From the IMG/VR virus record IMGVR_UViG_3300010160_000244, positions 1 through 22,525 of that record: a DNA stretch of 22,525 nt, one strand, 5' to 3'. Positions 1 to 22,525 of this stretch are shown piece by piece. Positions within the stretch are counted from its first letter, which is position 1; the number at the start of each line of letters is the position of its first letter. The stretch is from a virus. The notes beneath the pieces were generated by a model that did not search any database, was not told where the DNA came from, and saw only the letters and a list, made by a program, of their open reading frames with translations. The translations under genes were made by a program, and so were the position numbers.

Positions 1-16
1 ACTTTCAGGAAATTAA
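1..16 (+). other. possible 3' tail of an upstream gene
   Basis: The first bases read in frame 2 as four sense codons (L S G N) and a TAA at 14-16, which directly abuts the polymerase ATG at 17. Abutting stop/start pairs are common elsewhere in this window, so this may be the end of a gene cut by the window edge. The same bases (AGGA at 7-10) also serve as the polymerase ribosome binding site. Too short to identify. Confidence 0.25.
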
Positions 17-1948
17 ATGTCAACCCTCCACCTCGATCTGGAGACGTTCAGCACTGTGCCTATTACGCACGGCACGCACGCCTACGCCGAGAAGTCGGAG
101 GTGCTGCTGGTCGCCTATGCGTTCGACGACGAGGCCGTGGAGGTAATGGACCTGACTGCCGGTGGCAGCCTGGACAACGTCCAGATGCTGATCGACAGCG
201 CCGACACCGTGGTGATCCACAACAGTGCGTTCGACCGCACCGTGCTGCGCCACCGGGGCATCCACATTCCAGTGGATAAAGTCCACGACACGATGGTCCA
301 GGCCATGGCGCACAGCCTGCCTGGATCACTGGGCCAGCTCTGCGACATCCTTGAGGTGCCGACCGACAAGGCCAAGGACAAGGCGGGCAAGCGCCTGATC
401 CACCTGTTCACCAAGCCCCTGGGCAGGAACCGCAAGCTGGACCGCGCCACGTCCGCCACGCACCCCGACGAGTGGGCCGAGTTCGTTGAGTATGCGCGCC
501 TCGACGTGGAGGCCATGCGCAGTGTCTACACGGCGTTGCCGGTCTGGAACCTGACAGTGCCCGAGCGGTCGCTCTGGCTGCTCGACCAGCGCATAAACGA
601 CCGTGGCGTGGCCGTGGACCGAGAGCTGGCGACAGCGGCCCTACGCGCCGCCCAGAGGGCCGGGCGGGCCCTTGCCGATGAGATCAGCCTCCTGACCGGC
701 GGCCTAGTCACCAACACGACCCAGCGAGGCAAGACCCTCGACCACCTGCGTTCTATCGGCCTGGAGACGGACGACCTGAAGAGGGGCACCGTCAAGGCCC
801 TGCTAAAGGGCACGGCGATCAGTCCCGAGGTGCGCGCTATGCTGGAGGTGAGGCTACAGGCTGCGGCGACCAGCCCCGCCAAGTACCGCACTTTGCTCCA
901 AGCCACGTCGGCTGACGGGCGGCTGCGGGGGACGCTACAGTTCTGCGGCGCGACACGCACGGGCCGGTGGGGCGGGCGGCTGTTCCAGCCCCAGAACCTG
1001 CCCAGGCCGACCCTCAAGCAGTCTAAGATCGACATCGGCATTGCCGCGATGAAGGCCGACGCCGAGGACCTCTTGTTCGGCAACGTGATGGAGCTGTGCA
1101 CGTCCGCAGTGCGGGGCTGCCTCGTCGCGCCCGAGGACAAGAAACTGGTTATCGCCGACCTGTCCAACATCGAGGGGCGTATGCTGGCGTTCCTGGCCGG
1201 TGAGGAGTGGAAGCTGGAAGCCTTCCGCGATTTTGACAAGGGCATCGGCCACGACATCTACAAGCTGGCCTACGCCAAGTCGTTCAACATCAAGCCCCAG
1301 GACGTGACCAAAGATCAGCGCCAGCTAGGCAAGGTGCAGGAGCTGGCCCTGGGCTACCAAGGCGGTCTGGGTGCGTTCTCCACTATGGCCGCCCTGTACG
1401 GCGTCGATCTGTTCGAAGAGACGATCAACGATCTGGTGACGGCGTGGCGCACGGCGCACCCCAAGACCAAGAGCCTCTGGTACAATTGCGAGGACGCCGC
1501 CAAAAGCGCAATTCGAGAACCCGACGACATGTTCGAGGTGGGCAAGCTGATGTTCCGCATGGACGACAAGTGCCTGCGCATGGTGCTGCCGTCTGGGCGC
1601 TCGCTCTGCTACCCCAACGCCGAGATCATCGGCGGCAAGCTGACCTACGAGGGCGTCAACCAGTACACCCGTAAATGGGAGCGGTTGGAGACCTACGGCG
1701 GCAAGCTGGTCGAGAACGCCACGCAGGCGGCATCCCGAGACATTCTAGCTCACGGCCTGAGAGCAGCCGAGGCGGCGGGTTACGAGGTGGTGCTGCACGT
1801 CCACGATGAGCTGATCTGTGAGACGCCGGACATTGAAGAATATTCTGTTGATAAGTTGGCGCAGATGATGTCGTCTGGGCCGTTGTGGGCCATGGGCCTG
1901 CCGCTGGCTGCGGCGGGGTTCGAGACTACTCGCTACCGCAAAGAATGA
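17..1948 (+). CDS. polA: phage family A DNA polymerase with 3'-5' exonuclease
   Basis: Replicative DNA polymerase of 643 aa, without the 5'-3' FEN domain of bacterial Pol I. The N-terminal proofreading exonuclease has Exo I 'DLE' at D7/E9, Exo II 'HNSAFD' near residues 69-74 and Exo III 'YARLDVE' near residue 160. The polymerase domain has motif A 'DLSNIEGR' from D381, motif B with R435, K439, L443 and Y447, and motif C 'HVHDE' (H596, D597, E598), so both active sites look intact. Counting from the motif B lysine, L443 occupies the place of E. coli Phe762. The ATG is preceded by AGGA seven bases upstream. It heads the + strand replication unit and an HNH gene starts 9 bp after its stop. The family is certain; the subfamily is inferred from motif B. 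Confidence 0.97.
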   Translation: MSTLHLDLETFSTVPITHGTHAYAEKSEVLLVAYAFDDEAVEVMDLTAGGSLDNVQMLIDSADTVVIHNSAFDRTVLRHRGIHIPVDKVHDTMVQAMAHSLPGSLGQLCDILEVPTDKAKDKAGKRLIHLFTKPLGRNRKLDRATSATHPDEWAEFVEYARLDVEAMRSVYTALPVWNLTVPERSLWLLDQRINDRGVAVDRELATAALRAAQRAGRALADEISLLTGGLVTNTTQRGKTLDHLRSIGLETDDLKRGTVKALLKGTAISPEVRAMLEVRLQAAATSPAKYRTLLQATSADGRLRGTLQFCGATRTGRWGGRLFQPQNLPRPTLKQSKIDIGIAAMKADAEDLLFGNVMELCTSAVRGCLVAPEDKKLVIADLSNIEGRMLAFLAGEEWKLEAFRDFDKGIGHDIYKLAYAKSFNIKPQDVTKDQRQLGKVQELALGYQGGLGAFSTMAALYGVDLFEETINDLVTAWRTAHPKTKSLWYNCEDAAKSAIREPDDMFEVGKLMFRMDDKCLRMVLPSGRSLCYPNAEIIGGKLTYEGVNQYTRKWERLETYGGKLVENATQAASRDILAHGLRAAEAAGYEVVLHVHDELICETPDIEEYSVDKLAQMMSSGPLWAMGLPLAAAGFETTRYRKE

Positions 1949-1957
1949 GTAAAAGCA

Positions 1958-2455
1958 ATGACTTATGAGGATGTAAGGCGATTGTTTGTTTACGAGCCTG
2001 ATACCGGGCGCTTGCGTCGTACTGAGGGCCGCAAGCCGTATCCGTGGCACGGCTGCGGGTCTAAGCGGCAATACTTAGCGACAAGCGCGGGTTCAAAAAA
2101 TGGCCGCAAAGAGTACGCGCACCGTCTGGTGTGGCTGTACCATCACGGCTTTATGCCAAAAATGGTGGATCACATAGACGGTGACACTAAAAACAATCGG
2201 ATTGAAAACCTCCGAGAGTGCAACAACGCTCAGAACCAATACAACGGGCGACGCAAAAGCAACAACCGCTCGGGCTACAAGGGCGTGGCGTTTTGCAAAG
2301 GTTACCGGAAACCTTGGCGGGCAAGGATAGTCGTGGACAAGAACCCTGTTGATCTCGGCTATTTCAACACGCCAGAGCTTGCGGCGGCAGCTTACGCAGA
2401 AGGTGCTAAAACTTACGCCAAAGAGTTTGCTAAATACGACGCAATACAACTTTAA
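1958..2455 (+). CDS. HNH homing-type endonuclease with C-terminal AP2 domain
   Basis: Free-standing HNH endonuclease of 165 aa, the kind found as selfish genes in phages. The HNH core runs from about residue 55 ('AHRLVWLYHHG') through 'DHIDGD' (H72) to 'NNRIENLREC' (N80-R81). An AP2-like DNA-binding domain follows at about 103-156 ('GYKGVAFCKGYRKPWRA', then 'LGYFNTPELAAAAY'), the standard HNH+AP2 arrangement. It lies 9 bp after the polymerase stop. There is no convincing Shine-Dalgarno (upstream is GAGTAAAAGCA), so expression may depend on readthrough from the polymerase gene. The coding sequence is visibly richer in A/T (runs such as TCAAAAAATGG) than its neighbours, suggesting recent arrival. 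A role in cutting a polymerase-gene allele is inference; the gene is beside polA, not inside it. Confidence 0.93.
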   Translation: MTYEDVRRLFVYEPDTGRLRRTEGRKPYPWHGCGSKRQYLATSAGSKNGRKEYAHRLVWLYHHGFMPKMVDHIDGDTKNNRIENLRECNNAQNQYNGRRKSNNRSGYKGVAFCKGYRKPWRARIVVDKNPVDLGYFNTPELAAAAYAEGAKTYAKEFAKYDAIQL

Positions 2456-2458
2456 AAG

Positions 2459-2464
2459 AAGGAG
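2459..2464 (+). promoter_or_regulatory. ribosome binding site of the VRR-NUC gene
   Basis: AAGGAG four bases before the ATG at 2469. This strong site decides the start: the frame is open back to 2349, inside the HNH gene, but the in-frame ATG at 2469 is the only one with a good site and avoids a long overlap. Confidence 0.8.
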
Positions 2465-2468
2465 TGAC

Positions 2469-2768
2469 ATGACCCCCGAAGGCAAGATCGAAGCGCACCT
2501 TGTTAAGCGCGTCGGGCAACTCGGCGGCGAGATCAGGAAGTTGTCCTGGATCGGTCGGCGCGGGGCCCCTGACCGCTTTATCTGGTGGCCTGGGCCGATC
2601 TTCGCCTTCGTCGAGGTCAAGGCCCCCGGCGGGCGCATCTCCACCCTACAAAAGCGCGAGATGGACCGGCTGGCCGAAGCCGGGTTCAACGTCGCCGTGG
2701 TCTGGGATGAAGAAGGTGTAGACGAGCTACTTTTCATGTTGACTACGTCACCAAGGGGCCTACAGTAA
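2469..2768 (+). CDS. VRR-NUC domain nuclease
   Basis: Single-domain nuclease of 99 aa, the usual size of stand-alone phage VRR-NUC proteins in the PD-(D/E)xK superfamily. Visible catalytic pattern: E8 in the first helix, 'GAPDR' with D35, then 'FVEVKAPGG' with E49 and K51, and Q61 in the following helix ('LQKREMDRLAEAG'). Start chosen at the ATG preceded by AAGGAG. The last base of its TAA is the first base of the next ATG (TAATG), implying translational coupling. Phage VRR-NUC genes are often found near an SNF2-type helicase, as here (3765-5135). A structure-specific or Holliday-junction nuclease role is family inference and has not been shown for this protein. Confidence 0.92.
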   Translation: MTPEGKIEAHLVKRVGQLGGEIRKLSWIGRRGAPDRFIWWPGPIFAFVEVKAPGGRISTLQKREMDRLAEAGFNVAVVWDEEGVDELLFMLTTSPRGLQ

Positions 2769-3173: not shown

Positions 3174-3198
3174 GCGCGACCCTAAAAGAGACCTGACA

Positions 3199-3279
3199 AT
3201 GGAACATACAATAACGCGCCTCGCGCGCGAGGCCGCAACGCTGTCTGGAATACCTTACGAGGTGCCCCGTGGCGTATAA
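3199..3279 (+). CDS. 26-aa ORF preceding the GcrA-like gene
   Basis: ATG at 3199, TAA at 3277-3279, with a weak AAAGAGA site upstream. The peptide starts 'MEHTITRLAREAATLSG' and ends 'VPRGV', the same five residues that end the next gene. Its last codons contain the GAGG binding site and GTG start of that next gene, an 11-bp overlap. It may be a translated leader that couples translation into the GcrA-like gene, a very small protein, or the remnant of a duplicated gene end. The reading frame alone is weak evidence; the shared junction makes it worth listing. Confidence 0.4.
   Translation: MEHTITRLAREAATLSGIPYEVPRGV
3261..3279 (+). repeat. gene-junction repeat, copy 1
   Basis: GGTGCCCCGTGGCGTATAA. 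It matches 3757-3775 at 17 of 19 bases. In one frame it encodes V-P-R-G-V-stop; shifted, it supplies a binding site (GAGG/AGGTG) and the start GTG-GCG of the next gene. Confidence 0.8.
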
Positions 3280-3775
3280 TAGAGGTGACAGCGAGGGCGA
3301 GGGTACTCGCTGGTCGGACGAAGACCACGCGACAATGCTTCGGCTGTGGACAGATGGTTTTAGCGCTCGTTATATAGGCGATCTTATCGGGCGTACCCGC
3401 AACGCAGTTTTGGGATACATCCACCGCAGGAACATCAACAAGGGGATCAGGCGTGCGCCTTTGGCTCCCAAGGTGAGGGCCCCCAAGGAGTTAGGCAGCA
3501 ACCGTATTCGGCTTTCGCAAGTGCCGAAGACAAAGCCACAGCCAAAGAGCGGCTTGACGGTGTTGGCCATGCCGCAGCCGAGGCGCGAATACACCGGCGC
3601 ACGGCCCTGGATCACGCGGCAGGCGTTCGAGTGCAAGTTCCCCGTGTCGGGCGCTGGCGCGGACACGTTCTCCTGCTGCAAGCCAACAACAGTGCTCTAC
3701 GGCTACTGCAAGGAGCATGAGGCAAGGATGTACGTCCCGCGCAAGCCCCGTGTACAGGTGCCGCGTGGCGTCTAA
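3269..3775 (+). CDS. gcrA: GcrA-like cell-cycle regulator homologue
   Basis: 168 aa with the two-part layout of GcrA, the alphaproteobacterial sigma70-associated factor that activates promoters bearing CcrM-methylated GANTC. An N-terminal helix-turn-helix covers residues 15-53 ('WSDEDHATMLRLWTDGFSA', then 'IGDLIGRTRNAVLGYIHR'). A basic, Pro-rich linker (about 60-108) follows. The C-terminal Cys module has 'FECKFPV' (C122), 'CCKP' (C136/C137) and 'YGYCKEHEARMY' (C147, H150), the part that in cellular GcrA contacts RNA polymerase. The GTG start at 3269 has GAGG six bases upstream and puts the first Trp near the N-terminus, as in the family. The gene overlaps a 26-codon ORF upstream and its end overlaps the helicase start. 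Function in the phage is inferred; the window has no GANTC site for it to bind. Confidence 0.88.
   Translation: MAYNRGDSEGEGTRWSDEDHATMLRLWTDGFSARYIGDLIGRTRNAVLGYIHRRNINKGIRRAPLAPKVRAPKELGSNRIRLSQVPKTKPQPKSGLTVLAMPQPRREYTGARPWITRQAFECKFPVSGAGADTFSCCKPTTVLYGYCKEHEARMYVPRKPRVQVPRGV
3757..3775 (+). repeat. gene-junction repeat, copy 2
   Basis: GGTGCCGCGTGGCGTCTAA. It differs from 3261-3279 at two positions only. It ends the GcrA-like gene (V-P-R-G-V-stop) and supplies the GTG start at 3765 of the helicase gene. Confidence 0.8.
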
Positions 3776-5135
3776 GCCGTTTACACCACACCCCTATCAG
3801 CTAGACATCATTGAGTTCGTCACCGGCAACGCCCGCTGCTCGGTCTGGGCGGGCATGGGCACCGGCAAGACGGTGTCCACGCTGACGGCGCTGGAGCACC
3901 TGTCCCTGGTCGAGGAGGTGTACCCGGCGCTGGTGCTGGCACCGCTGCGCGTGGCGCGGACGACGTGGCCGGATGAGGTGGCTAAGTGGGTCCACACCGA
4001 GCGCCTGCGGATCGTGCCGGTGACGGGCAATGTCAAACAGCGTTTGACAGCCCTGGCCAAGGCCGCCGACATCTATGCAACGAATTACGAGCAGTTGCCG
4101 TGGCTGGTCGAGCATTACGGCGACCACTGGCCGTTCAAGACGGTCGTGGCTGACGAGCAGACGCGCCTCAAGTCCTACCGCACGCGGCAGGGTTCCAAGC
4201 GCGCCAAGGCGCTGGCGCAGGTGGCGCACACGCAGGTCAGCCGCTTCATTGGCCTGACCGGCACACCGTCGCCCAACGGGCTGGCGGACCTGTGGGGCCA
4301 GACGTGGTTTGTGGACCGTGGAGAGCGCCTGGGGCGGACTTACAGCGCCTTCGAGGCTCGGTGGTTCAAGAAGGGCTGGGACGGCTTCAGCGTCTCGCCG
4401 CTGCCCACGGCGCAGAAGGAGATCGAGGACAGGCTGAAGGACGTGTGCCTGACGGTCACCGGCCTGCCGGTGGACGAGCCCCTAGTTAACAACATCTATG
4501 TCGATCTGCCATCCGACGCCCGCGACACCTACGACGAGATGGAAAAAGAGATGTTCATGGAGATCGAGGAGTTCGGCGTTGAGGCGCTGAACGCTGCGGC
4601 CAAGACCATGAAGCTGCTGCAACTGGCCAACGGCGCGGCCTACATCGACGACAAACAAAACTGGCGAGAGGTCCATGACGAGAAGATCGAAGCCCTGCGC
4701 TCCGTTATCGAGGAGGCGGCTGGCGCTCCCGTACTGGTGGCCTACCATTTCAAGAGCGACTTGGCCCGGCTACGGGCAGCTTTTCCTAAAGCTAGGGTTC
4801 TCGACGCTGACCCTGCAACGATCCGTGAGTGGAACGAGGGGCGGATACCGCTCTTATTCGCTCACCCTGCGAGTGCTGGTCATGGACTTAACTTGGCACG
4901 CGGCGGCAACATCCTTGCCTTCTTCAGCCTCAACTGGTCGTTGGAGAACTATTTACAGATCATCGAGCGCATCGGCCCCATGCGGCAGAAGCAGGAGGGC
5001 CTAGATCGACCAGTGTTTATCCACCACATTATGGCGCGCGACACCGTGGACGACATGGTTCTGGAGCGTCTGGCGTCTAAGCGCGACGTGCAGGACATCT
5101 TGTTAGAAGCAATGAAGCGGAGGAAGAAGGGCTAG
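3765..5135 (+). CDS. SNF2/DEAD-like ATP-dependent helicase
   Basis: Superfamily 2 helicase of the short phage SNF2 type, 456 aa from the GTG at 3765. Motif Q-like 'PHPYQLD' at 9-15; Walker A 'GMGTGKT' at 30-36 (K35); Walker B 'VVADEQTRLK' with D130-E131; motif III 'LTGTPSPN' at 164-171. The second RecA domain has 'SAGHGLNL' at 370-377 and the arginine-bearing motif VI 'QIIERIGPMRQ' at 398-408 (R402, R407). The frame is open from an ATG at 3717, but that has AAGGAG only one base away, whereas the GTG copies the junction that starts the gcrA-like gene and gives the usual short N-terminus before motif Q. It probably works with the polymerase and VRR-NUC nuclease in replication or recombination; the DNA substrate is unknown. 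Confidence 0.93.
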   Translation: MASKPFTPHPYQLDIIEFVTGNARCSVWAGMGTGKTVSTLTALEHLSLVEEVYPALVLAPLRVARTTWPDEVAKWVHTERLRIVPVTGNVKQRLTALAKAADIYATNYEQLPWLVEHYGDHWPFKTVVADEQTRLKSYRTRQGSKRAKALAQVAHTQVSRFIGLTGTPSPNGLADLWGQTWFVDRGERLGRTYSAFEARWFKKGWDGFSVSPLPTAQKEIEDRLKDVCLTVTGLPVDEPLVNNIYVDLPSDARDTYDEMEKEMFMEIEEFGVEALNAAAKTMKLLQLANGAAYIDDKQNWREVHDEKIEALRSVIEEAAGAPVLVAYHFKSDLARLRAAFPKARVLDADPATIREWNEGRIPLLFAHPASAGHGLNLARGGNILAFFSLNWSLENYLQIIERIGPMRQKQEGLDRPVFIHHIMARDTVDDMVLERLASKRDVQDILLEAMKRRKKG

Positions 5136-5148
5136 ACACGAAAGCCTT

Positions 5149-5162
5149 CACCCACTAGGGTG
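5149..5162 (+). other. small inverted repeat
   Basis: CACCC-ACTA-GGGTG, a 5-bp perfect stem with a 4-base loop between the helicase stop and the 57-aa gene. No T-run follows, so I do not call it a terminator. It could slow RNA decay or be chance. Confidence 0.3.
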
Positions 5163-5190
5163 CAATCTTCAAAGAAGAGGAGAAGCAGGA

Positions 5191-5364
5191 ATGGCCGAAC
5201 GAACCCGGTTTACGTCTTACGAGGAGCTTTTGGTCAGGATGGGGCTAGAGAGAACGCGGGAAAATTACCTGTGGCTTATCTATAACGGCGAAGTGCCCGA
5301 GGAGTTTGATTACGACGACGAACAGGTCCTGCCGCCAGACCTTCGTATCATTCACGACGAGTAG
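5191..5364 (+). CDS. 57-aa acidic protein of unknown function
   Basis: Not recognised. ATG at 5191 behind an A/G-rich leader (AAGAAGAGGAGAAGCAGGA, containing AGGAG). The 57-aa product is strongly acidic in its second half ('NGEVPEEFDYDDEQ'), which could mimic DNA or bind a basic partner. It is the last + strand gene and its final 17 bp overlap the end of the convergent 949-aa gene. A small acidic protein at the end of an early operon would fit a host- or defence-modulating role, but nothing in the sequence proves that. Confidence 0.7.
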   Translation: MAERTRFTSYEELLVRMGLERTRENYLWLIYNGEVPEEFDYDDEQVLPPDLRIIHDE

Positions 5365-8197
5365 GCTTCACCGCAAACATCCGTCGAACAGGGCGCCCAA
5401 GCAGTTCCGCTATGGCGCGTCGAGCCGCGTCGGGACTAGGTGCGGTTCGCCAGATACTTTCTACCTGTTTCTTTAATTCGGGTGTTTTGAGGCCCTCGCC
5501 CCACAGCGTGCGGACACCGCCCCACGGGGCTGCTTGAGCTTCTGCGGGAAGCATCCCAAGGCGTTCTCCCGCGAGCGCGTGTGCGTCTGCCGCGACCCCG
5601 TAATAGCCCTTTGTCCCGGTTCTAGCCGAGTTTGGCGCTGCTTGAGGTAGCCCTGTACTCGGAGACAAACCCATTGTGCGATAGACTACAGGGTCTTTAC
5701 CCCCTCCCGGAAACAGGCTGAACGCTCCCGCGCTGTGCGTATCCATGGTCGCCATGGGAACTTTCGAGTACGGGTTGGCTACGTGGTTAAAGAAGGTGGG
5801 GACTTTGCCCCCCCCAAGCATCTGTTCTGTTATGTTCGCCATAGAGGGGTCGTTCATAATGTTCAGAGATTTGTTGACTATGTCGGAATTGCCCCAAGTC
5901 ATCTTTCCGAAGTCGTCGCCATACTCGCCCGGTGCAAGAAACCGTTTAACGGTGGGAGCGTTTTGGCTCAGGTCTGACATGAACACTTTTGCGTATCGTT
6001 CGAAACCATCCACAGGAAGATCGGCCATAGGGGTTTCAGCGACGCGCATGAGCCAATCATCGGGCATGGACGCAATCGACCCCAGTTCTGAGGGGTTTTT
6101 GGCGGCAGCCCTGCGATCAGCCACCCATTTCATGACGGCCTTTGGATCGGTGGCGTAGTCCGAGGTGTGCATGTTCAACAGCCGCGACATTCTGGCGACG
6201 TTAATGTCCCAAGGCGTTTGGGGAGAGGTAGTCGCGGTAACGCCGTAGCCGACCTGCTCAGGGAAACCTGTTTTCAGCGCAGCGTTTTTGGCTTCGGCGT
6301 GGGCGGCGGGGTAAAACCGCCGTGCGTAGTCCACGTCGGTCGGGCTCATGAGGTCGTTGACGATAAAAGATAGGTTGTCCGCGCCTTGATCGACGCCGTA
6401 TTTGAGGAGCAACTCGGGGTCGGTGGTGTTTGCCCCGCTCATGTAGGGTTCCTCCGCCAACAACTTCATGGCCTTCTCGAACGTGCCTGGAGTGTTGCGG
6501 AGGGCTTCCCCGGATTGTGTCAGAAGGTCAATGTTAGGGTTTCCCTGTGCCGCGTAGTTTGACGCCGAGGGTCTCCGCGTGCTTACCATGTAGGGGCTGT
6601 CGGCCTTGTTCAGCGGAAGGGCGGAGGTCCCTGACTTGACGTTGTACCTGTCCGCAAGCCCGCCGAGGGTTACGGGGCCTTTGTGTCCGTAGCCTTGATC
6701 GGCGGCTTCTCGGAGGTAGCCCTCAAGTCGGTCGGCGGCTTCTGACTGGAGAACCTGCGGTCCCAGTTGAATGGATGATCCGGGTGGTTCCACGGGCGAT
6801 GTTCGCCTGCCATAGCCGTCTCCTTTGTCCGGGAAAGCCACGTTAGCGTCGTAGCTGTCAACATCGTACCGCGCGTTCAACTGTTTGGCTATGTCGTCGC
6901 GGATGGCTGCGGTCTTGGCACCCCCAGGACCGGCCAGGATGTCCATATATCCTTGGCCCAGGTCTGTGGTGTGGCCCTCTGCCAACCCAGCCTTGTTCAG
7001 TTGGCTGTACACCTGATGGGCTTGGTCTTCCGTCACGTTTGGCGGAAGTTTGACACGCGCGACGCCAGAAGGTGAGCTGTTCTCGAACGGCCTTATGTCT
7101 GCCGCCATCATAGCGTCTTGGCGCAGTAGATCGCCCAGTCCGTGGACGGCTTTGGTAACGTCGGCGGGGTCTTTCGGTCGAAAGATGAAGTTCGGGTTCG
7201 AGGCACCCTCGTAACCACCGAGGCCCGAAACCATGTTCCCTTCGACCCCGGTTTCCCTTTTCCAGCGCGGCAGAAACTCCTCAACAATCTTGTTGGAAAT
7301 GGACGCCTTTGCTTCGGGATGCAGTTTCTCCCACTCGTGTTTTTGGGTTGCGTTCCACTTCTGACCGGGAGCCACCTCCGTCATGACGGCGGGGGGAGGC
7401 GCTTTGGGTGCTTTAGGCACTTTGGGTGCTTTGGACGCTTCAACGTCGTACTTCGCCGCTAGCTTCTCGACGTCCTTAACCGCCGCCTTCGGCTTCACGC
7501 CCATACCCAAAACGTGCTGACCGGGGCGAAGGGTTGGTCCCGCGACGTGGCTGGCCCCCAGGCCACCGCCGGTGACGTTCATAGCCATGTTGACCACGTC
7601 GCCCGTGTCGTAGCTGCCGCCTTGAGCCGCGACGCCGGGTGTCACGAACGCCTTGGCTAGGTCATAGGCGAACTGCGGCATCGTCCAAGGGTCTTTGCCA
7701 TCCTTTTGCGGAAACGGAAGAGGCAGAAGGCCCTGTGGACGCTCTACGCCCGGCTTCATGTGGGTCAACTTTTGCACGGCAAGCTCGATGTCGGTGGGCT
7801 TCTTAGTGCCGCCCTTGGCGTAGCCCTCGACGCCGTACTTCTCGGCCAGCCCGCCCATAGCCTTGCCCTTGTACTCTTCGCCCTGATCTTCATGCAGGCG
7901 CTGCGAGTAACCTTCGGCGTCCGCCAGCGTATCAAACGCTCCGAGGTGTTCGCCAGTCTTCTTGAAGTGGTCAATCGCTTCCTTGTTCGACACAACCTTG
8001 TCGCCAATCACGGTTGGCAGAACGTAGGTCTTGTTGCCAAAGCCGACAGTGATCGAGCGCACGGTGCTGATGCTGGCGTCGGCGTTATGCACGACGGGGC
8101 GGTTGTGCAGATCAAGGTTGCCGGGGATCGCGGGGCCGCCGGTTTGGTAGCCGTACTTCTCGGCCAGATCGCGTGCTGGGTTGGGCTTACGGGCCAC
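5348..8197 (-). CDS. large multidomain internal virion protein (949 aa)
   Basis: Last gene of the - strand structural unit. The GTG start abuts the TGA of the 708-aa gene with GAGGG just upstream. Residues about 43-110 form a compact domain ('TVRSITVGFGNKTYVLPTVI', then 'EAIDHFKKTGEHLGAFDT' and 'YSQRLHEDQGEEY') that I recognise from other large phage virion proteins. A Lys/Pro/Ala linker (255-270) separates it from a region at about 285-465. The C-terminal half (about 545-905) has 'TFFNHVANP', 'TMDTHSAGAF' and 'AEAQAAPWGGVRTLW', resembling a phage domain of unknown function with an F-NP-DTH-QA-W signature. Short LA-x-[KR]-Y-x-V motifs recur at 11, 117, 246 and 514. Its position after a transglycosylase-bearing protein suggests an ejected internal protein. 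No catalytic activity can be assigned. Confidence 0.88.
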   Translation of the reverse strand: MARKPNPARDLAEKYGYQTGGPAIPGNLDLHNRPVVHNADASISTVRSITVGFGNKTYVLPTVIGDKVVSNKEAIDHFKKTGEHLGAFDTLADAEGYSQRLHEDQGEEYKGKAMGGLAEKYGVEGYAKGGTKKPTDIELAVQKLTHMKPGVERPQGLLPLPFPQKDGKDPWTMPQFAYDLAKAFVTPGVAAQGGSYDTGDVVNMAMNVTGGGLGASHVAGPTLRPGQHVLGMGVKPKAAVKDVEKLAAKYDVEASKAPKVPKAPKAPPPAVMTEVAPGQKWNATQKHEWEKLHPEAKASISNKIVEEFLPRWKRETGVEGNMVSGLGGYEGASNPNFIFRPKDPADVTKAVHGLGDLLRQDAMMAADIRPFENSSPSGVARVKLPPNVTEDQAHQVYSQLNKAGLAEGHTTDLGQGYMDILAGPGGAKTAAIRDDIAKQLNARYDVDSYDANVAFPDKGDGYGRRTSPVEPPGSSIQLGPQVLQSEAADRLEGYLREAADQGYGHKGPVTLGGLADRYNVKSGTSALPLNKADSPYMVSTRRPSASNYAAQGNPNIDLLTQSGEALRNTPGTFEKAMKLLAEEPYMSGANTTDPELLLKYGVDQGADNLSFIVNDLMSPTDVDYARRFYPAAHAEAKNAALKTGFPEQVGYGVTATTSPQTPWDINVARMSRLLNMHTSDYATDPKAVMKWVADRRAAAKNPSELGSIASMPDDWLMRVAETPMADLPVDGFERYAKVFMSDLSQNAPTVKRFLAPGEYGDDFGKMTWGNSDIVNKSLNIMNDPSMANITEQMLGGGKVPTFFNHVANPYSKVPMATMDTHSAGAFSLFPGGGKDPVVYRTMGLSPSTGLPQAAPNSARTGTKGYYGVAADAHALAGERLGMLPAEAQAAPWGGVRTLWGEGLKTPELKKQVESIWRTAPSPDAARRAIAELLGRPVRRMFAVKPTRRE

Positions 8198-11680: not shown

Positions 11681-12675
11681 CAGATGAGCCCTTGTTTTTT
11701 AAGTGTGGCAAGAAAATCGGTTACGGTGGTGGCACCCGTAAGCCAGTTTGCCAGATCGCTCTTGGCGTAGGCCGTCTCGCTGGTTGCGGGGTCTGTACCC
11801 GCCGACACCACCGCTGACGGTACTCCGCTCTTGACGCCTTGCAGCGCGCCGATGAGCGCCGTGTTCTGCTGCTGCGGGTACGCCTGCTGACGCAGGAAGT
11901 CTTGGTACGCCAGATCGAGGTTCTTCTGGGCCTGACCCTGTTGCGCCGACCCAGCGGCTTGCAGAGCGCCAGCGCCGGTAATGCCCAAACCCTGTTGCTG
12001 CCCCGCCAAGTTAGCAAGCTGGCTGCCTTGAGCAAGCTGTTGCGAGCCCGCTGTATTGTATTGCGAGGCTATGTTGGTGCCCAGCTCACCTTGGCGGGTC
12101 AAGTCGTTTTGCGCCGCAGTCAGTGCGCCTCCGTAGCCACTCGCCAGCGCCTGCGCCTGGGCGGCGCTAATGCCCTCCATGGCGTCGCGCACACCGCGAC
12201 CGAACAGCTCGGCGTTGCGCGAGCCGCCGTAGGTGCCGCCTTGGATGAACTTGTCGCGGATGTTCGGCAGGATAGTTTCTTGAAGGGCGCGGTTACCCAG
12301 CTCACCAATCCGGTTCACGACATTCGTCGTGTATGGGTTCATGTATTGACCGACCTGCGACGCCGAGGTCTGGCCAGCCTGCTGATAGTACGGCGAGGCG
12401 GCGTAGAGGCCCAGGTACGGGTCCACGTTCCCCGTCGTCTGCATCGCCTGCGCTAGGCCGGGCTGATAGGCCGTGGCGGCTTGGCCAGCCATGCCGAAGG
12501 CTTGCTGCTGCTGCGGTGCCATCTCGGCGATGCGCGGCGCACCATACAGCGTATAGGGCTGGTTGGAGATGGCCTGCTGATTGGACAGGATGTCCATCGC
12601 ATAGTTGGTATACCAATCGGGCAGGACAGTTTCGGTCGTCTTGCTGCTTGGCGCCATTAAAACGTTGTCGGCCAT
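11680..12675 (-). CDS. Gln/Ala-rich virion protein, probable internal protein (331 aa)
   Basis: Soluble protein rich in Gln, Ala and Gly. Notable segments: 'WYTNYAMDILSNQQAISNQP' (21-40), 'GQYMNPYTTNVVNRIGE' (109-125) and 'DKFIQGGTYGGSRNAEL' (141-157), followed by a long Ala/Gln helix (about 170-270). The YMNPYT...GG-YG-SR-AE combination is one I associate with structural proteins of uncultured marine and freshwater podoviruses. No membrane segment or catalytic motif. Start ATG in a TAATG overlap, with GGAGG about 9 bases upstream. Likely packaged in the virion with the 451-aa and 708-aa proteins; the function is inferred. Confidence 0.8.
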   Translation of the reverse strand: MADNVLMAPSSKTTETVLPDWYTNYAMDILSNQQAISNQPYTLYGAPRIAEMAPQQQQAFGMAGQAATAYQPGLAQAMQTTGNVDPYLGLYAASPYYQQAGQTSASQVGQYMNPYTTNVVNRIGELGNRALQETILPNIRDKFIQGGTYGGSRNAELFGRGVRDAMEGISAAQAQALASGYGGALTAAQNDLTRQGELGTNIASQYNTAGSQQLAQGSQLANLAGQQQGLGITGAGALQAAGSAQQGQAQKNLDLAYQDFLRQQAYPQQQNTALIGALQGVKSGVPSAVVSAGTDPATSETAYAKSDLANWLTGATTVTDFLATLKKQGLI

Positions 12676-16556: not shown

Positions 16557-16789
16557 TAGATCGTCGCCTCAAGCATGGGGTAGGCGCGTTGCGCCCACTC
16601 CCGCCAATCGGTGAATTGATAGGGGTCAGGCACGTTGCGCTGGCTGTAGCCGTTGGCAACGACGAACGCCTTCGCCCAGCCCTGCCACTCGTTCTCGTTG
16701 TCCAGCTTGCCAAACGACCACACGTCGGTAACCGACAGAATGACGCTGTCAGCCCAGTCCCGGAGGGTCATGTGTCGCGGGTCGATCAT
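16556..16789 (-). CDS. 77-aa protein of unknown function
   Basis: Not recognised by fold. 77 aa, Trp-rich (six Trp: 'RDWADSVILSVTDVWSFGK', 'ENEWQGWAKAF', 'FTDWREWAQRAYP'), soluble. The ATG overlaps the stop of the gp10-like gene as ATGA, and its TAA overlaps the ATG of the 1293-aa gene, so it is translationally tied to both. Position between the tail hub and the giant repeat protein suggests a small structural or assembly protein. A second in-frame Met at residue 7 is possible but lacks a better binding site. Confidence 0.78.
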   Translation of the reverse strand: MIDPRHMTLRDWADSVILSVTDVWSFGKLDNENEWQGWAKAFVVANGYSQRNVPDPYQFTDWREWAQRAYPMLEATI

Positions 16790-18555
16790 CCAATGACGGT
16801 TCCATCGCCGGGTTGCAGGTGGCCCAGACAGATACCCATCTGGTAGTCGCCGCCTATGACGTTGCTCTCGAACCGGAACCGTAGCTCGCGCCGCTGATCT
16901 TTGAAGTATATCACCTGCTGCTGCGGGATAGAAGGCGTCTGCACAATCGTTTTGATTTCGCCATTAACCTCGGGTGCGCGGGCGTTTGCGCGGCCTGTGA
17001 CCTGCACCGTCATGTTGCCGACCTGCACGAAGTCAGGCTCCAGCATCAGCACCTGAAGCGCCCTGTTCTCCTGCGACATCACAGGCAGCGATATGTCGGC
17101 GGTCTCAAAGAACGACAGGATAGGCTGGATGTTCTGCCCGTCGATCTCGTCCTTGCCGATCTCGTGGACCCAGAACTTGAACGGATTGACGAAGGTTATG
17201 TTGAACGTGGCGTCGGCCCCGCTGCCGCCGGTCACGTCCACGGGGTTTTCGGGAGCCAGCGTATAGGAGCCAGCGTTGGAGATTTCCACCGTGTCAATGG
17301 CATCGCCCCCTCCAACAGTGAGCACCGTCAGTTGGGTTGGGATGCTGTACGCGCCGCCGACTACGGTAAGCACGTCACCCACCGTGTAGTTCGTGCCGCC
17401 CGCATCGAGGGCTACGTCGAAGGCCGCAGCGGGCTGCGGAGCCACGCCGGTCATCAGCGGCCTGCGGAACACCGCCGGGAACAGGCCCGCCGAGCGGCCA
17501 CCGTTGGGCAGTTCAAGGTCGTACCAAGTCTTTTCGCGGGTGTTGTAGATGACGGCGTGCGTACACTCCGTGGCTCCGTCACGGGGGTAGCACCACCAGA
17601 TTTCGCCGTAGCGCGGCACCTTCATGGCGAACACCTTCTGGCGGGCGGCGTAGTTCAGCCCGTCGAAGAAATAGTTAATGTTCAGGGTGTTCTCGACCTC
17701 GCGCACGACGCCGTTAAACATCAGGAAGCGGTCCACGCCGCACCAGTAGAAGACGCCGTCGTACTCGATCACGCAGTTGGACGACAGGATCGAGGTTTGG
17801 GTGGAGAGCGTGTCGGCCTGGAAGATTTGATCGCCGCCTACGAAGGATATGCGCACCAAGCTGTCGGCGGACCAGAACAGGCCCGAGGGCGAGTTGCCTG
17901 GGCCACCGCGCAGGGGTAGCCCGCGCACGATCTTCTGGGACGTGATGTAGGCGTCGCCAGAGCCAGCGCCGCTGAAGTCGCTTGGATCGCCGGGCACGGA
18001 CCACGCCACGTAGCCGTTTGAACCGTACATAAAGGTGTAGGGGTGCAGCGCCACGACGCCGCCGGTGGCGTTGCCGCCGCTTGGGATGGCGATAGCCGTT
18101 AGCGGGTCGGTGCCTAGCAGGTCGCCGTAAAACACCTCGCCGCCAAGGCTGTTGCAGATGCAGCTATAGTTCGGGGCTACCTGGGCGATGATCTGGTTGG
18201 CATCGCCCAAACCGTCGTAGGTGAACTGCCACATATTGCCGGGGTCGGGCGTGAAGTCGCTTTCCGGCGTGCGGTCAATTATGGGGCTGGTGTTGTTCGA
18301 GGCGTCGATGAAGAACCGCTCGACGTAGTTGGCCGAGCCGCTGTGGATGTAGGTGAGCTGGTCCTGGGTGTACTCACTCAGTTGGGTGCTGACTTCCCGC
18401 AGGTACTTGTTGATCGAGCGGTAGCCGCCGATCTTACGCGGCAGGCCGCGCTGGAACCGGACCCACTGCCCGTCCACATAGTTGTCGCCCTCGAACTTGG
18501 TCCCGTCACGCTTGATGCCGGGGAGCGACTTAATCTGGAGGATTTTGTCGGCCAT
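16786..18555 (-). CDS. P22 gp10-like packaged DNA stabilisation / tail hub protein
   Basis: 589 aa resembling the P22 gp10 family, which closes the tail tube after packaging and joins the portal/adaptor to the distal tail. N-terminus 'LPGIKRDGTKFEGDNYVDGQ' and 'WVRFQRGLPRKIGGYRSI' (about 11-47), then a beta-propeller-like region with repeated aromatic strands ('GVFYWCGVDRFLMFNG', 'RYGEIWWCYPRDG', 'VIYNTREKTWYDLEL'), and a C-terminal beta domain ('RRELRFRFESNVIGGDYQMG'). Between about residues 376 and 452 sits a Gly/Val-rich module ('GGTNYTVGDVLTVVGG' ... 'VTGGSGADATFNITF') that looks inserted and is found in other phage tail proteins. Its ATG overlaps the fibre gene's TAA. No clear Shine-Dalgarno precedes it, so coupling is likely. 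Confidence 0.85.
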   Translation of the reverse strand: MADKILQIKSLPGIKRDGTKFEGDNYVDGQWVRFQRGLPRKIGGYRSINKYLREVSTQLSEYTQDQLTYIHSGSANYVERFFIDASNNTSPIIDRTPESDFTPDPGNMWQFTYDGLGDANQIIAQVAPNYSCICNSLGGEVFYGDLLGTDPLTAIAIPSGGNATGGVVALHPYTFMYGSNGYVAWSVPGDPSDFSGAGSGDAYITSQKIVRGLPLRGGPGNSPSGLFWSADSLVRISFVGGDQIFQADTLSTQTSILSSNCVIEYDGVFYWCGVDRFLMFNGVVREVENTLNINYFFDGLNYAARQKVFAMKVPRYGEIWWCYPRDGATECTHAVIYNTREKTWYDLELPNGGRSAGLFPAVFRRPLMTGVAPQPAAAFDVALDAGGTNYTVGDVLTVVGGAYSIPTQLTVLTVGGGDAIDTVEISNAGSYTLAPENPVDVTGGSGADATFNITFVNPFKFWVHEIGKDEIDGQNIQPILSFFETADISLPVMSQENRALQVLMLEPDFVQVGNMTVQVTGRANARAPEVNGEIKTIVQTPSIPQQQVIYFKDQRRELRFRFESNVIGGDYQMGICLGHLQPGDGTVIG

Positions 18556-20543
18556 TAGACAAACGGCGTCAGAGAGGCGAGGACGGTGAAGGCCGCCGAC
18601 CCCGTCTTGATAACCGTGTAGGTGTACACATCAACGCCGGAGGCGTTGCCCGCAGCGGGCACCGCGCTTTGCCACTTCGTCGTCACGCCAATCGTCGCGC
18701 CGTCAACCTGCACGACGTTGTTATAGTACGCAGTAGCGCCTTGGGTGACGAGGAAGGCGGCGGTGACGCTCTCGCCGCTGGACATAGCGGTGTCTAGCGA
18801 CGTGCCCGACGAGGCGCGCAGGTTGACCGTCCAGTTGGCCGAGGCGTTAGAAGTGTAATACAGGACGCTCTGGGTTGTCACATCGTAGTTGATCGTGCCC
18901 GTCGCGGCGGTAGCGGACGCGGTGACTTTCTCTAGGGCGTTGACGAGCTTCGCCGCCAAGACGCTGGTCGAACCAGTGAACGTCTGCTGACCAGTCCAGG
19001 CGTTGGCGTAGGTCACGTCGAGGCTAAGAGTGCCGGTGGTAGTGATCGGACCGCCGGTCAAGCCGTTTCCCGACGCCACGCTGGTGACGCTGCCGCCAGA
19101 ACCTGTAGCGTTAATGGTGATCGTGCCGTTGCCGTTAGTGATGGTGACGCCGCTGCCTTGCGTCAGTGTTGCCTTAGTCAAACCGCCGCCGGAGCTGTTG
19201 CCGATCAGCAGTTGGCCATCTGTGTAGGAGGTGTTGCCTGTGCCGCCGGAAGCTACAGCCAGCGTGCCTCCCAAGGTCAACGTGCCAGTGGTTGTAATGG
19301 CCCCGCCAGCTAGCGTCAGTCCCGTCGAGCCGCCTGAGCCGCTAACGCTGGTTACGGAGCCATCGCCCGTGCCAGCGCCGATGGCGGTGCGCGCATTGGC
19401 TTGGGTCGAGGCAGTAAACACGTCAATGCCGACGGTCGTGCCACCCAGGTTTATGAGCGCGCCGCCAGCCGTGCTGGCACCTGTGCCACCGTCGCTGATG
19501 GCAATCGGCAGAGCAATCGACGCCGTGTCGGCCTTAACGACATCCGTGCCGTTGCAGTAGTAAATGCCCCGGCTGTCGCGCGGCACGTCCACCGGAACCG
19601 TCTGGCCGTCAGTGCCGATGCTCAGAGTGTAGGAGCCGCCGGTTGTGTCGTTGGAGACCCAGTACTGCTGCGTTGTGGCAGGCAGGATGACAGCGACATC
19701 ACCAACAATCTCGCCCACAAAGGAGTAGGCAATGCGGTTTAGCTCCGCGCCAGACAGGGTGTAGTCGCCGCCGCCCTCGCCCGCTAGGTTGATGGAGGTG
19801 TAGTCGAAGGCAAACACGGCCTGCTGGCCGAAGCCGACAGTGAAGAAGCTAGTGCCGTCGGTAATGACTGTGGCGCTGTCCTCGGGGCGCAGGACCAGCG
19901 TGCTTAGGGCGTTGATGGTGTCGCCGCCCTGCGCGGTGATGGTGAGGTTGCCCTCGCCACTGTTACGGACAGCCACAAACCAGTTGTTGCCGACCGAGGA
20001 GGCGGTGGGCAGCGTCAGGGTGCCGAGGCCACCCTCCCAGACAAAGGCCGCAGCGCGGTTGCCCGCGCCAAGCGTAAAGTCGTTGTTGAAGACCGTGACG
20101 GGCTGCGACTGCGACAGGAGGCTGCCCTGGGCGATCAGGCCGTAACCGGCCAGTTGAGAGGCTTGGGCCTGCGCCGTCGCGGCACCGGCTTGGAAGCTCT
20201 CCCACGTACCGGCGACGGTCGTGTTGTCGGTCAGGTACAGAGTGAAGGTCAGGCCCGCATCAATAGAGAGCAGCGTCCCGCCAGCATTATCCTTGATCGT
20301 GATGGTGTCGGGGCCGACGTTCAAGAACTGGGTGACTTGGCCCACGCCCGTCAGCATCGCGTCGGGCATCGTGATCGAGTAGGCGTCGGTCGGCGTAACG
20401 TCGATGATCCGCGCAACAATGTCGTTGCCGGTCGCTGTTTCCAGCGGCCATTGCAATTCCGTGTCGGCTGTGAGCGCCAGGGCCAGATAGCTGACATCCG
20501 ACGGGTAGATCGTGTTGCCGCCAAAAACTTGGGTGAATGACAC
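18555..20543 (-). CDS. tail fibre / receptor-binding protein (662 aa)
   Basis: Likely trimeric fibre. The N-terminal part (1-340) is beta-rich with Gly/Asp turns. A collagen-like, Gly/Thr/Ser repeat zone follows: 'GGTGASTAGGALINLG' (352-367), 'SVTSVSGSGGSTGLTLAGG' (396-414), 'GGTGNTSYTDGQLLIG' (433-448) and 'SVTSVASGNGLTGGPITTTG' (485-504). The C-terminal 130 residues ('EKVTASATAATGTINYDV', 'VLYYTSNASANWTVNLRA', 'FLVTQGATAYYNN') resemble a domain I know from fibres of marine phages, including cyanophages. It begins with GTG, with AAGGAGG five bases upstream, immediately after the adaptor's TAA. Receptor binding is inferred; host range cannot be read from sequence. Confidence 0.85.
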   Translation of the reverse strand: MSFTQVFGGNTIYPSDVSYLALALTADTELQWPLETATGNDIVARIIDVTPTDAYSITMPDAMLTGVGQVTQFLNVGPDTITIKDNAGGTLLSIDAGLTFTLYLTDNTTVAGTWESFQAGAATAQAQASQLAGYGLIAQGSLLSQSQPVTVFNNDFTLGAGNRAAAFVWEGGLGTLTLPTASSVGNNWFVAVRNSGEGNLTITAQGGDTINALSTLVLRPEDSATVITDGTSFFTVGFGQQAVFAFDYTSINLAGEGGGDYTLSGAELNRIAYSFVGEIVGDVAVILPATTQQYWVSNDTTGGSYTLSIGTDGQTVPVDVPRDSRGIYYCNGTDVVKADTASIALPIAISDGGTGASTAGGALINLGGTTVGIDVFTASTQANARTAIGAGTGDGSVTSVSGSGGSTGLTLAGGAITTTGTLTLGGTLAVASGGTGNTSYTDGQLLIGNSSGGGLTKATLTQGSGVTITNGNGTITINATGSGGSVTSVASGNGLTGGPITTTGTLSLDVTYANAWTGQQTFTGSTSVLAAKLVNALEKVTASATAATGTINYDVTTQSVLYYTSNASANWTVNLRASSGTSLDTAMSSGESVTAAFLVTQGATAYYNNVVQVDGATIGVTTKWQSAVPAAGNASGVDVYTYTVIKTGSAAFTVLASLTPFV

Positions 20544-21197
20544 TTATGCCTCCTTCCGCACGGCGGAACGGTCAAGGATTTTGGCGAGGTCTTCGCCGTT
20601 GAGCATGGCCGCCGAGCGGTCGTACATCTGCTGCCATACTGGGATGCGGTCGTCGTTCTTCAGGAAGGGCGTGGCCTCCAACAGGGTGGCGTACAGCAGC
20701 ACCTGCGGCGCGTAGTCGGTGAGCCAGTTGGTTTGGTTCTCGTCGTCCAGCAGCACCGGCAGCTCGTAGTACAGCACCTCGAAGGGGTAAGCCTCGTCGG
20801 GCGGCGGCAGGATCAGCCAGTTGGTGTAGTTGTAGTCGGCGTAGAACACCGGCTCCTCGGTCAGGCTCTCGTCGGGCCAGTACGAGCGCAGGTACTCATA
20901 GTCGCGTGTAAACAGGAACTTGCGGACATCGTTGGTAGCGCCCGTGCCGATGTTGATCGACACCGTGTCGCGCCAGCGGTCGGGCTTCTGGTAGACGGAT
21001 TGGCCGACGATCAGGGTGTCGGTGACGACGTTGATGAAGCCCTGGATTTTGAGTTCACGGGCGATCCGGCGCTCTGCCAGATTGATAAGACGCGGGATTT
21101 GCTCGTAGACGATGGCGTCTTCGGCTAGGGTAGCACCACGTTCAAGATAACGACGCACGTCCTGTTGGAGCGTCGTGAAGGTCATCGTCGTCGCCAT
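20544..21197 (-). CDS. SU10-type head-tail adaptor protein (217 aa)
   Basis: Adaptor/neck protein attaching the tail to the portal in podoviruses. 'IPRLINLAERRIARELKIQG' (about 35-54) is the conserved early helix and 'YAPQVLLYATLLEATPFLK' with 'DRIPVWQQMYDRSAAML' near the C-terminus is the typical closing helix pair. A central beta part ('EVLYYELPVLLDDENQTNW') lies between. The frame opens at a TTG at 21230, but the ATG at 21197 is preceded by AGTAGGTG at good distance and gives a family-like start, so I use it; another ATG at 21185 is possible. It is the first gene of the structural operon, about 58 bases downstream of the predicted transcription start. Its TAA touches the GTG of the fibre gene. 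Confidence 0.82.
   Translation of the reverse strand: MATTMTFTTLQQDVRRYLERGATLAEDAIVYEQIPRLINLAERRIARELKIQGFINVVTDTLIVGQSVYQKPDRWRDTVSINIGTGATNDVRKFLFTRDYEYLRSYWPDESLTEEPVFYADYNYTNWLILPPPDEAYPFEVLYYELPVLLDDENQTNWLTDYAPQVLLYATLLEATPFLKNDDRIPVWQQMYDRSAAMLNGEDLAKILDRSAVRKEA
20549..20555 (-). promoter_or_regulatory. strong ribosome binding site of the tail fibre gene
   Basis: On the - strand AAGGAGG, five bases before the GTG at 20543. It confirms the non-ATG start and is the best Shine-Dalgarno match of the structural unit. Confidence 0.8.
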
Positions 21198-21261
21198 ACA
21201 GCACCTACTGGTGGGTGATGGACGCCGCAACCTTACATGAGGCTTCGACCGTCAAGCTGTT

Positions 21262-21290
21262 TTTATAGCGCACTAAGGGCGGCCTGTCAC
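21262..21290 (-). promoter_or_regulatory. predicted sigma70-like promoter of the structural operon
   Basis: On the - strand -35 GTGACA (21290-21285), a 17-bp spacer and -10 TATAAA (21267-21262), each hexamer one mismatch from consensus. The predicted start near 21254 leaves a leader of about 58 bases before the adaptor ATG. It lies in the only large gap of the - strand genes. The -35 sits in the loop of the inverted repeat at 21277-21299. Confidence 0.6.
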
Positions 21291-21299
21291 GGGCCGCCC
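21277..21299. repeat. perfect GC-rich inverted repeat overlapping the -35 element
   Basis: GGGCGGCC - 7 bases - GGCCGCCC, an 8-bp perfect stem. It follows the lysis-like genes and could be the hairpin of a terminator, but on the - strand the next bases are TTAGTGCG, not a T-run. It may be an operator or a mixed terminator/promoter element. Confidence 0.65.
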
Positions 21300-21311
21300 C
21301 TCGCACTTTGG

Positions 21312-21473
21312 TTAACGCAAGCCGTTCCGCAGGGTAGCCGCCAAGATGGCGGTGACCGCCATTTGGATGGCCTGTATGGCCGTGGCGTCGCCGGTAGCGT
21401 AACTAGCGCCTGCGCCAATGATGGTCAGCAGCGCAGCGATGTAAGTCTTCTTGCCTTTAAGAATACCAAACAT
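21312..21473 (-). CDS. small membrane protein, putative holin (53 aa)
   Basis: 53 aa: basic start 'MFGILKGKKT', one clear membrane helix at about 11-26 ('YIAALLTIIGAGASYA'), a Gly-Asp turn, then a second amphipathic or membrane helix at about 31-47 and a basic end 'LRNGLR'. A start with KGKKTY before a hydrophobic helix is common in small phage membrane proteins next to endolysins. ATG at 21473 chosen because AAGGA lies upstream (AATAAGGAAAACAACC) and the longer open frame reads as non-membrane sequence. It lies 11 bp after the secreted protein gene and downstream of the M15 peptidase, which supports a lysis role, but pore formation is inferred. Confidence 0.65.
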   Translation of the reverse strand: MFGILKGKKTYIAALLTIIGAGASYATGDATAIQAIQMAVTAILAATLRNGLR

Positions 21474-21484
21474 GGTTGTTTTCC

Positions 21485-22048
21485 TTATTGAGGGATGGGG
21501 CCACCGACCGGGTAGGTCGCGCCCGTAGGCGCTTGGGTGACCACAAGAGTGCCCGAAACAACGGGCGCACCGGCAATGTTCTCGTTTATTGGGCCGTAGC
21601 ATTTGGCCAATTTAACGGTGCCGACACGCTTGGGTTCAAGCGTGCAGGCGAAAGAGAACATATTTGACAGCCCATTACCAGCACTTGTCGTGAAGGTGCG
21701 GATGGTGGCCACGTCGCTGCGCGACCAATTAGGAGCCTGCGGGAACTTGTCGCGGTACTGGTACAGGCTCCAAACCTGATTGGGGCCGGGCTGATCGCAC
21801 GAGCCCTTCATGTTGCCGCCAGCCACGTCGGCAATGGCCGGGCCGTTTAGCACCGGGCAGACAGCCATCGCTTCTGAAAACTGAGCCGTGCCGCCGCCCT
21901 CGACGTTGACTGTGATCATCTTGCCGGTCGGGGTGCTAGGTGAGGCGGCGCAGAGCGCGAACTTCTGGTGGCAGATTTGGTAGCTGCGGGCGTGGGCCGG
22001 AGCCGAGATGGCAAGCATGCCAGCGGCGAGGATGGCGATATGTTTCAT
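21485..22048 (-). CDS. secreted cysteine-rich protein of unknown function (187 aa)
   Basis: A Sec signal peptide spans residues 1-20: Lys/His start, hydrophobic core 'IAILAAGMLAISAP' and 'AHA' before the predicted cut at 20/21. The mature part has six Cys (C26, C33, C64, C84, C135, C150), allowing three disulfides, and conserved-looking stretches 'CPVLNGPAIADVAGGNMKG' and 'GPNQVWSLYQYRDKFPQ'. I associate similar secreted proteins with rhizobial genomes and phages but know no function. No lipobox. It overlaps the M15 gene (ATGA) and precedes the putative holin by 11 bp. Possible roles: a spanin-like or periplasmic lysis helper, a superinfection factor acting in the periplasm, or a structural protein. 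None is proven. Confidence 0.85.
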   Translation of the reverse strand: MKHIAILAAGMLAISAPAHARSYQICHQKFALCAASPSTPTGKMITVNVEGGGTAQFSEAMAVCPVLNGPAIADVAGGNMKGSCDQPGPNQVWSLYQYRDKFPQAPNWSRSDVATIRTFTTSAGNGLSNMFSFACTLEPKRVGTVKLAKCYGPINENIAGAPVVSGTLVVTQAPTGATYPVGGPIPQ

Positions 22049-22512
22049 GCGTGTATCCCCGGTGAGTAGGTCATCTTGCCGTTAATAACAGAAGCCGTAA
22101 GCACATCCTTGCGGTTGCCAGTATCTTTGTAGCTACAGTGAACCCAGCCGCTGGTTGGCACGCCGGGCTTATAGCACTCAAGGATCAGTTGGTCGAAGTC
22201 GAGGTTGTCGCGCACCCAGATGGCAAGGTCGCCGTTAGGCACGCCGGGGATTTCCATATCGACTGCCTCGCCCTTGCAGTGCTGGCTGCTAGACGCGCCG
22301 CCTACGGCCTTGTTCAGGGCTGGGCCTCGATAGCCGCTGTTAATGTGGACGGGCTTGCCAAAATGGGCGCGGACCTTCTCCACGACGTGCTCGCAGACCG
22401 CCTTCAACGCCGCCAGTTCAGCGGCAGGGGGCAGATTGTCTAGGCCAAGGCGCTCGCCCGTCTGGCTCTTGGTTAGCTCTTCGAGGGTGATGTGTTCAGT
22501 TATCTGGGTCAT
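22045..22512 (-). CDS. M15 family peptidase, probable endolysin
   Basis: 155 aa, the normal size of a single-domain M15A peptidase (D-Ala-D-Ala carboxypeptidase or L,D-endopeptidase type) that cleaves peptidoglycan peptides. The zinc site is visible: 'SGYRGPALNKAVGG' (59-72), 'SSQHCKGEAVDMEIPG' with H78 and D85, 'LILECY' with candidate base E112, and 'GWVHCSY' with H125. There is no signal peptide, so release would need the downstream small membrane protein or another holin. ATG at 22512. A TGA at 22521-22519, six bases upstream on the same strand, may end a further gene beyond the window. A virion-associated role cannot be excluded, but the location beside a membrane-protein gene favours lysis. 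Confidence 0.92.
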   Translation of the reverse strand: MTQITEHITLEELTKSQTGERLGLDNLPPAAELAALKAVCEHVVEKVRAHFGKPVHINSGYRGPALNKAVGGASSSQHCKGEAVDMEIPGVPNGDLAIWVRDNLDFDQLILECYKPGVPTSGWVHCSYKDTGNRKDVLTASVINGKMTYSPGIHA

Positions 22513-22525
22513 TTTGTCTCATCGC

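Follow-up and report, generated by a model that had tools for sequence, protein, structure and literature searches.

Phages counter-select the palindromes cut by type II restriction enzymes, and this is the described phenomenon closest to the one reported here: the total absence of GANTC, the target of the host cell-cycle methylase CcrM, from IMGVR_UViG_3300010160_000244. This record is a linear virus fragment of the IMG/VR collection; "the window" below denotes the whole stretch analysed, 22,525 bases. The likeness to restriction-site avoidance lies in the specific and almost total disappearance of a palindrome, more than composition and codon bias account for, in the loss of other six-base palindromes, and in relief where a methyltransferase of the matching family is present, seen here as an association. 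The difference is that GANTC, as the site of a cell-cycle methylase, stands outside the known restriction systems of these hosts. Moreover, the purge extends over many hosts and phage families, and a search for the HpyAIV family yielded no cognate nuclease.

Depletion of GANTC as such has been described in pelagiphages, where it affects about half of 33, is clustered by phylogeny (especially in the Autographivirinae) and extends to a prophage region; restriction was raised as a possible reason although SAR11 has no restriction-modification systems (Seong et al. 2022, PMC9516812). The phages considered here belong to a different group, as probably do their hosts. What goes beyond the pelagiphage case is the total absence of the site in genomes of 49-58 kb and in cultured Caulobacter phages, together with a link to methyltransferases. 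Such enzymes are known from alphaproteobacterial phages (phiLM21_p027, phi2/phi3LM21, OC p213) and have CcrM-like specificity. That of phiLM21 is GANTC-specific and protects from HinfI (PMC5537653), and the CcrM-like p213 of Ochrobactrum phage OC is GANTC-specific as well (PMC7139368). The window has no enzyme of this kind and illustrates the opposite route, erasure of the sites. In the literature searched, which left most subscription journals outside, we found no report of total GANTC absence in Caulobacter phages or of an erase-or-methylate relation.

Absence of GANTC in the window, its clade and unrelated phages

An exact count bears out the first-pass annotation of the window, which had reported no GANTC (GAATC, GACTC, GAGTC and GATTC each 0):

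1..22525, unstranded: whole contig, zero GANTC on either strand (exact count; synonymous-codon shuffle null)

The control figures given there (about 60% GC, 85-90 GATC, more than 50 GANTG) agree with the exact values of 60.7%, 90 and 55. Its expectation of 70-80 sites was somewhat high, since dinucleotide frequencies predict 64.8, but the depletion is real. A third-order Markov model, one of the comparisons it had proposed, expects 29.8 sites against the zero found; by the other, GANTC ranks lowest among the 256 words of the form XXNXX, the next lowest being TCNCA at 0.39. A stricter null, in which every protein and its codon usage are kept and synonymous codons alone are redistributed, expects 32.1 +/- 4.4 GANTC in the coding sequence of the window, with a minimum of 20 in 200 shuffles. 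Codon and amino-acid bias thus explains about half of the naive expectation, not the zero. The contention that the site was removed specifically, and not through a codon or GC effect, is therefore upheld: the absence is specific to the word and exceeds what composition, amino-acid sequence and codon usage impose. The one point in favour of a compositional or codon by-product, an assembly artefact or chance is that the naive expectation drops by half under third-order and codon models. This explanation is refuted by the shuffles, none of which fell below 20 sites, and many independent contigs, as well as cultured isolates, likewise have no GANTC; we give it virtually no credence.

Many sites elsewhere in the genome would have spoken against a purge. 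Because the record is a linear fragment, this check was made on relatives, for which the window's DNA polymerase served as query. Four relatives of 49-58 kb contain 0 GANTC, where 84-99 are expected in coding sequence by the shuffle and 206-242 from dinucleotides. Most other close relatives of the window have 1-6 sites each. Pooled, the 44 contigs with window-like polymerases contain 30 GANTC against 1,103 expected by synonymous shuffle (a ratio of 0.027), and the ratio is 0.81 for polymerase relatives further removed. The purge is a property of the window's phage clade.

The few GANTC sites still present in purged relatives lie almost all in coding sequence and, in two records, in clusters, a pattern that fits recent gene gain better than the keeping of regulatory sites. 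Retention for regulation was considered and rejected on the same ground, coding sites being unlike kept promoters. In one 56-kb record (G045), all five GANTC lie within the first 1.4 kb (L204:128-1375), which suggests that this end is foreign or recently gained DNA.

The same loss is found well outside the clade. Taking as ratio the coding GANTC count over the synonymous-shuffle expectation, the Caulobacter phages Percy (0/78), Cd1 (0/71), Lullwater (2/87), SR18 (0/68), JessA (1/71) and BL94 (0/73) are purged, as are Brevundimonas phage AA (0/69), Rhodobacter phage RcTitan (1/72) and pelagiphage HTVC019P (6/74). Phages of other proteobacteria (BPP-1, BcepC6B, PaP3) lie at 0.90-1.07, and alphaproteobacterial chromosomal DNA is mildly low at 0.75. 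Contigs of at least 7 kb whose RNA polymerase is related to that of Percy divide by identity: each of the 16 at 64% or more has a ratio within 0-0.34, and all those at 60% or less have ratios of 0.74-1.48. The purge arose independently in unrelated phages.

Methyltransferase genes and the proposed cost of GANTC

Three phages of C. vibrioides CB15 keep GANTC, namely RW (0.50), Sansa (0.52) and phiCbK (0.57). Profile searches detected in all three a methyltransferase of PHROG 799 (E = 4e-24, 2e-39 and 3e-54, respectively), the family to which phiLM21_p027 also belongs; the kinship suggests that these enzymes methylate GANTC. The same searches found PHROG 799 in none of SR18, JessA, BL94, Percy, Cd1 and Lullwater, and in no other purged record, those of the window's clade included. 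Within this CB15 panel of nine phages the enzyme is thus present in 3/3 keepers and 0/6 purged phages (Fisher p = 0.012). Ochrobactrum phage OC and Ruegeria phage DSS3-P1 carry a CcrM-like methyltransferase, that of DSS3-P1 being related to OC's, and keep GANTC fully (0.94 and 1.13). When alphaproteobacterial phage lineages are scored for a PHROG 799 or CcrM-like enzyme, one is present in 7/11 keepers and 0/7 purged lineages (Fisher p = 0.013); at genus level the association between enzyme and retention has a Fisher p of 0.029. The purge is thereby shown to be associated with the lack of a PHROG 799 or CcrM-like methyltransferase. Among other families, a search for Dam (PF05869) methyltransferases found none, and D12 enzymes (PF02086), present only in G020 and Sansa, were not counted as GANTC enzymes.

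RW is nested inside the purged polymerase clade despite keeping GANTC. Its PHROG 799 gene (L218:46194-46772, minus strand) is flanked by two annotated large-terminase pieces, as if newly gained by insertion in the terminase gene. Contigs with RW-like methyltransferases have a pooled GANTC ratio of 0.54, and none is below 0.28.

GANTC is avoided in company. Under the same synonymous null, purged phages also lack 8-20 palindromes, most of them six-base. In the window, those low beyond codon bias are CGGCCG (0/23), GCCGGC (0/23), CAGCTG (0/11), CCGCGG (1/18) and GGCGCC (2/26). ATNNAT, a newly described Caulobacter restriction-modification site (PMC11945714), is mildly low there (14 vs 28). RW, phiCbK and DSS3-P1 avoid 15-24 six-base palindromes as strictly, RW and phiCbK about 15, yet keep GANTC, which ties the cost to the unmethylated site. 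GANTC thus resembles a further restriction site, and methylation by the phage enzyme is a plausible means of lifting its cost. As a separate observation, the coding sequence of Brevundimonas phage AA (L262-L263) is also without AATT (0/40) and GTAC (0/76).

Our preferred reading, which we hold to be rather probable, is that unmethylated GANTC is costly in hosts with CcrM, most likely through restriction-type attack, and that phages either erase the site or methylate it. CcrM methylation would mark host DNA as self, and unmethylated GANTC in phage DNA would be cut or otherwise attacked by a restriction-type defence. Selection would remove every GANTC, in coding sequence mainly through synonymous choice, and a phage carrying its own GANTC methyltransferase could keep its sites as a second answer. 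That the cost takes the form of nuclease attack is what we infer from this pattern. Of the three reasons offered in the first-pass annotation, evasion of restriction fits best, since keepers tend to carry a methyltransferase and other palindromes are avoided too; avoidance of methylation-dependent regulators fits poorly (see below). The third was competition for CcrM. On this view, unmethylated phage sites in large number would occupy the methylase and so slow a host cell cycle on which the phage depends. It fits the association between methyltransferase and retention, as a phage enzyme would relieve the load on CcrM too. However, it leaves the parallel avoidance of 8-20 other palindromes unexplained, and single sites have been removed though a few could hardly titrate CcrM. 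We consider it quite unlikely. One could also envision a wider form of the restriction reading, with the CcrM mark acting as a class-wide self mark of alphaproteobacteria and one or more defence systems that have no dedicated methyltransferase attacking unmethylated GANTC, thereby driving several phage families independently to erasure or methyltransferase gain; this we put forward as a tentative idea and rather doubt.

Several observations weigh against a restriction-type cost. Of the four methyltransferase families searched for, none is present in SIO1 (0.52), HTVC010P (0.64) and DSS3phi2 (1.20), which keep GANTC, nor in G014, G038, OchroOH and Atu_ph02, whose GANTC levels are intermediate. 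Phage type confounds the association, jumbo and temperate phages being over-represented among keepers; the lineages are few, and the cut-offs for "purged" and "kept" were chosen after the data were seen. HpyAIV cuts GANTC, and a nuclease of its family was found in 0/385 alphaproteobacterial genomes, the HinfI family not having been searched. Finally, CB15 reportedly lacks type II restriction (PMC11053796), so that the pressure must come from other natural hosts. Other Caulobacter strains do have type II restriction, including systems with unannotated genes (PMC11053796, PMC11945714).

The nuclease search had a positive control in gammaproteobacteria, where the HpyAIV family was detected beside CcrM-like methyltransferases. 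Two gammaproteobacterial genomes (L244, L245) have full-length CcrM-like methyltransferases (51-53% identity) and no HpyAIV-type nuclease in the genome, unlike G150 and G236 with their methyltransferase-nuclease pairs. Two alphaproteobacterial plasmids carry a copy of CcrM, in neither case with a nuclease annotated beside it.

The purpose of GANTC methyltransferases in alphaproteobacterial phages was left open by their describers (PMC7139368), and a same-host panel of erasers and enzyme carriers allows it to be tested directly and cheaply. If unmethylated GANTC is indeed costly, the essential cell-cycle methylase CcrM would have a role in defence as well, alphaproteobacteria would harbour a hidden GANTC-directed defence still to be discovered, and the absence of GANTC could serve as a host-class marker for uncultured phages.

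Gene content of the window and its GcrA homologue

By its gene sequences, the window derives from the genome of a podovirus-like phage akin to Caulobacter phage RW. Its polymerase is 63% identical to that of RW and 55% to that of Bordetella phage BPP-1, and its structural protein is 63% identical to the RW protein; the RW-group Caulobacter phages (proposed Riverwalkvirus) are its nearest cultured relatives, BPP-1 being more distant. RW and the window share an arrangement of polymerase and helicase genes followed by minus-strand virion genes. They differ in that RW has the PHROG 799 methyltransferase and a GANTC ratio of 0.50, whereas the window's clade is without the enzyme and purged. The features of the window are:

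17..1948, plus strand: family A DNA polymerase with 3'-5' exonuclease and polymerase domains (PF00476, PF01612)
1958..2455, plus strand: HNH endonuclease (PF13392, E=9e-17; PADLOC HEase, E=5e-5)
2469..2768, plus strand: VRR-NUC nuclease (PF08774, E=1e-10; open reading frame list)
3269..3775, plus strand: GcrA homologue of 168 aa with DNA-binding and sigma70-interacting domains (PF07750, 53.8 bits; PDB matches)
3717..5135, plus strand: SNF2/DEAD-type helicase, start uncertain, overlapping the end of gcrA (PF00176, E=3e-16)
5348..22512, minus strand: virion and lysis gene block (PHROGs, Pfam), with the five following members identified from the same sources
8198-10324, minus strand: protein with a transglycosylase region
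11680-12675, minus strand: DNA ejection-like protein
16786-18555, minus strand: virion structural protein
20544-21230, minus strand: SU10-type adaptor
22045-22512, minus strand: M15 peptidase

The window's Caulobacter relatives and GcrA gene suggest that its host is an alphaproteobacterium, probably with the GANTC methylase CcrM. A search of bacterial genomes with the window polymerase returned distant matches only (Acinetobacter, another gammaproteobacterium, one Rhizobiales genome and a Dependentiae metagenome-assembled genome).

The GcrA gene, like the purged clade itself, had been overlooked in the first-pass annotation. Its product matches solved GcrA over the full length (PDB 7ye1_G, E=3e-15), with residues 14-54 matching the DNA-binding domain (5yiu, E=7e-7) and residues 100-161 the C-terminal sigma70-interacting domain (5yix_B, E=0.0025). 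The gene is patchy among relatives (11/50 records). A GcrA family protein borne by a phage has a precedent in gp222 of phiCbK (Gill et al. 2012, PMC3556154); phiCbK, however, keeps about 290 GANTC in 210 kb, while the window's gene lies in a fragment with none. As the phage offers no methylated GANTC, its GcrA may be expected to act on the host chromosome. Looking for close GcrA relatives in more phages yielded a single weak match, with ordinary GANTC.

The presence of this gene in the window and some relatives indicates that the regulator matters to the phage, and thereby lends some support to the idea that CcrM-methylated phage GANTC would recruit GcrA-RNA polymerase and disturb phage transcription. 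So does the general under-representation of GANTC in alphaproteobacterial coding sequence (PMC3973325). Nevertheless, added methylation should worsen such harm, yet phages with a GANTC-family methyltransferase keep their sites. Percy and Cd1, which encode an RNA polymerase of their own, are no less strictly purged, and the residual sites are almost all coding rather than promoter sites. Avoidance of the regulator is, in our view, unlikely. Phage GcrA as the cause of the purge was rejected, a gene found in 11/50 records being a poor match for a general purge.

The HNH endonuclease gene adjoining the polymerase probably encodes a free-standing homing endonuclease. The VRR-NUC reading frame was listed from 2349, and its first ATG is at 2469. 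These two nucleases raise the question whether a phage enzyme might cut host GANTC, a phage without the site sparing its own DNA. No nuclease common to all purged lineages was found, however. Since the host's GANTC sites are methylated, an enzyme cutting the unmethylated form would spare the host, and one cutting the methylated form would make a phage methyltransferase a burden. We regard this possibility as very unlikely.

The polymerases of two relatives of the window and of RW (L040, L041 and L195) have some 200-300 extra internal residues compared with that of the window, possibly an intein or insertion.

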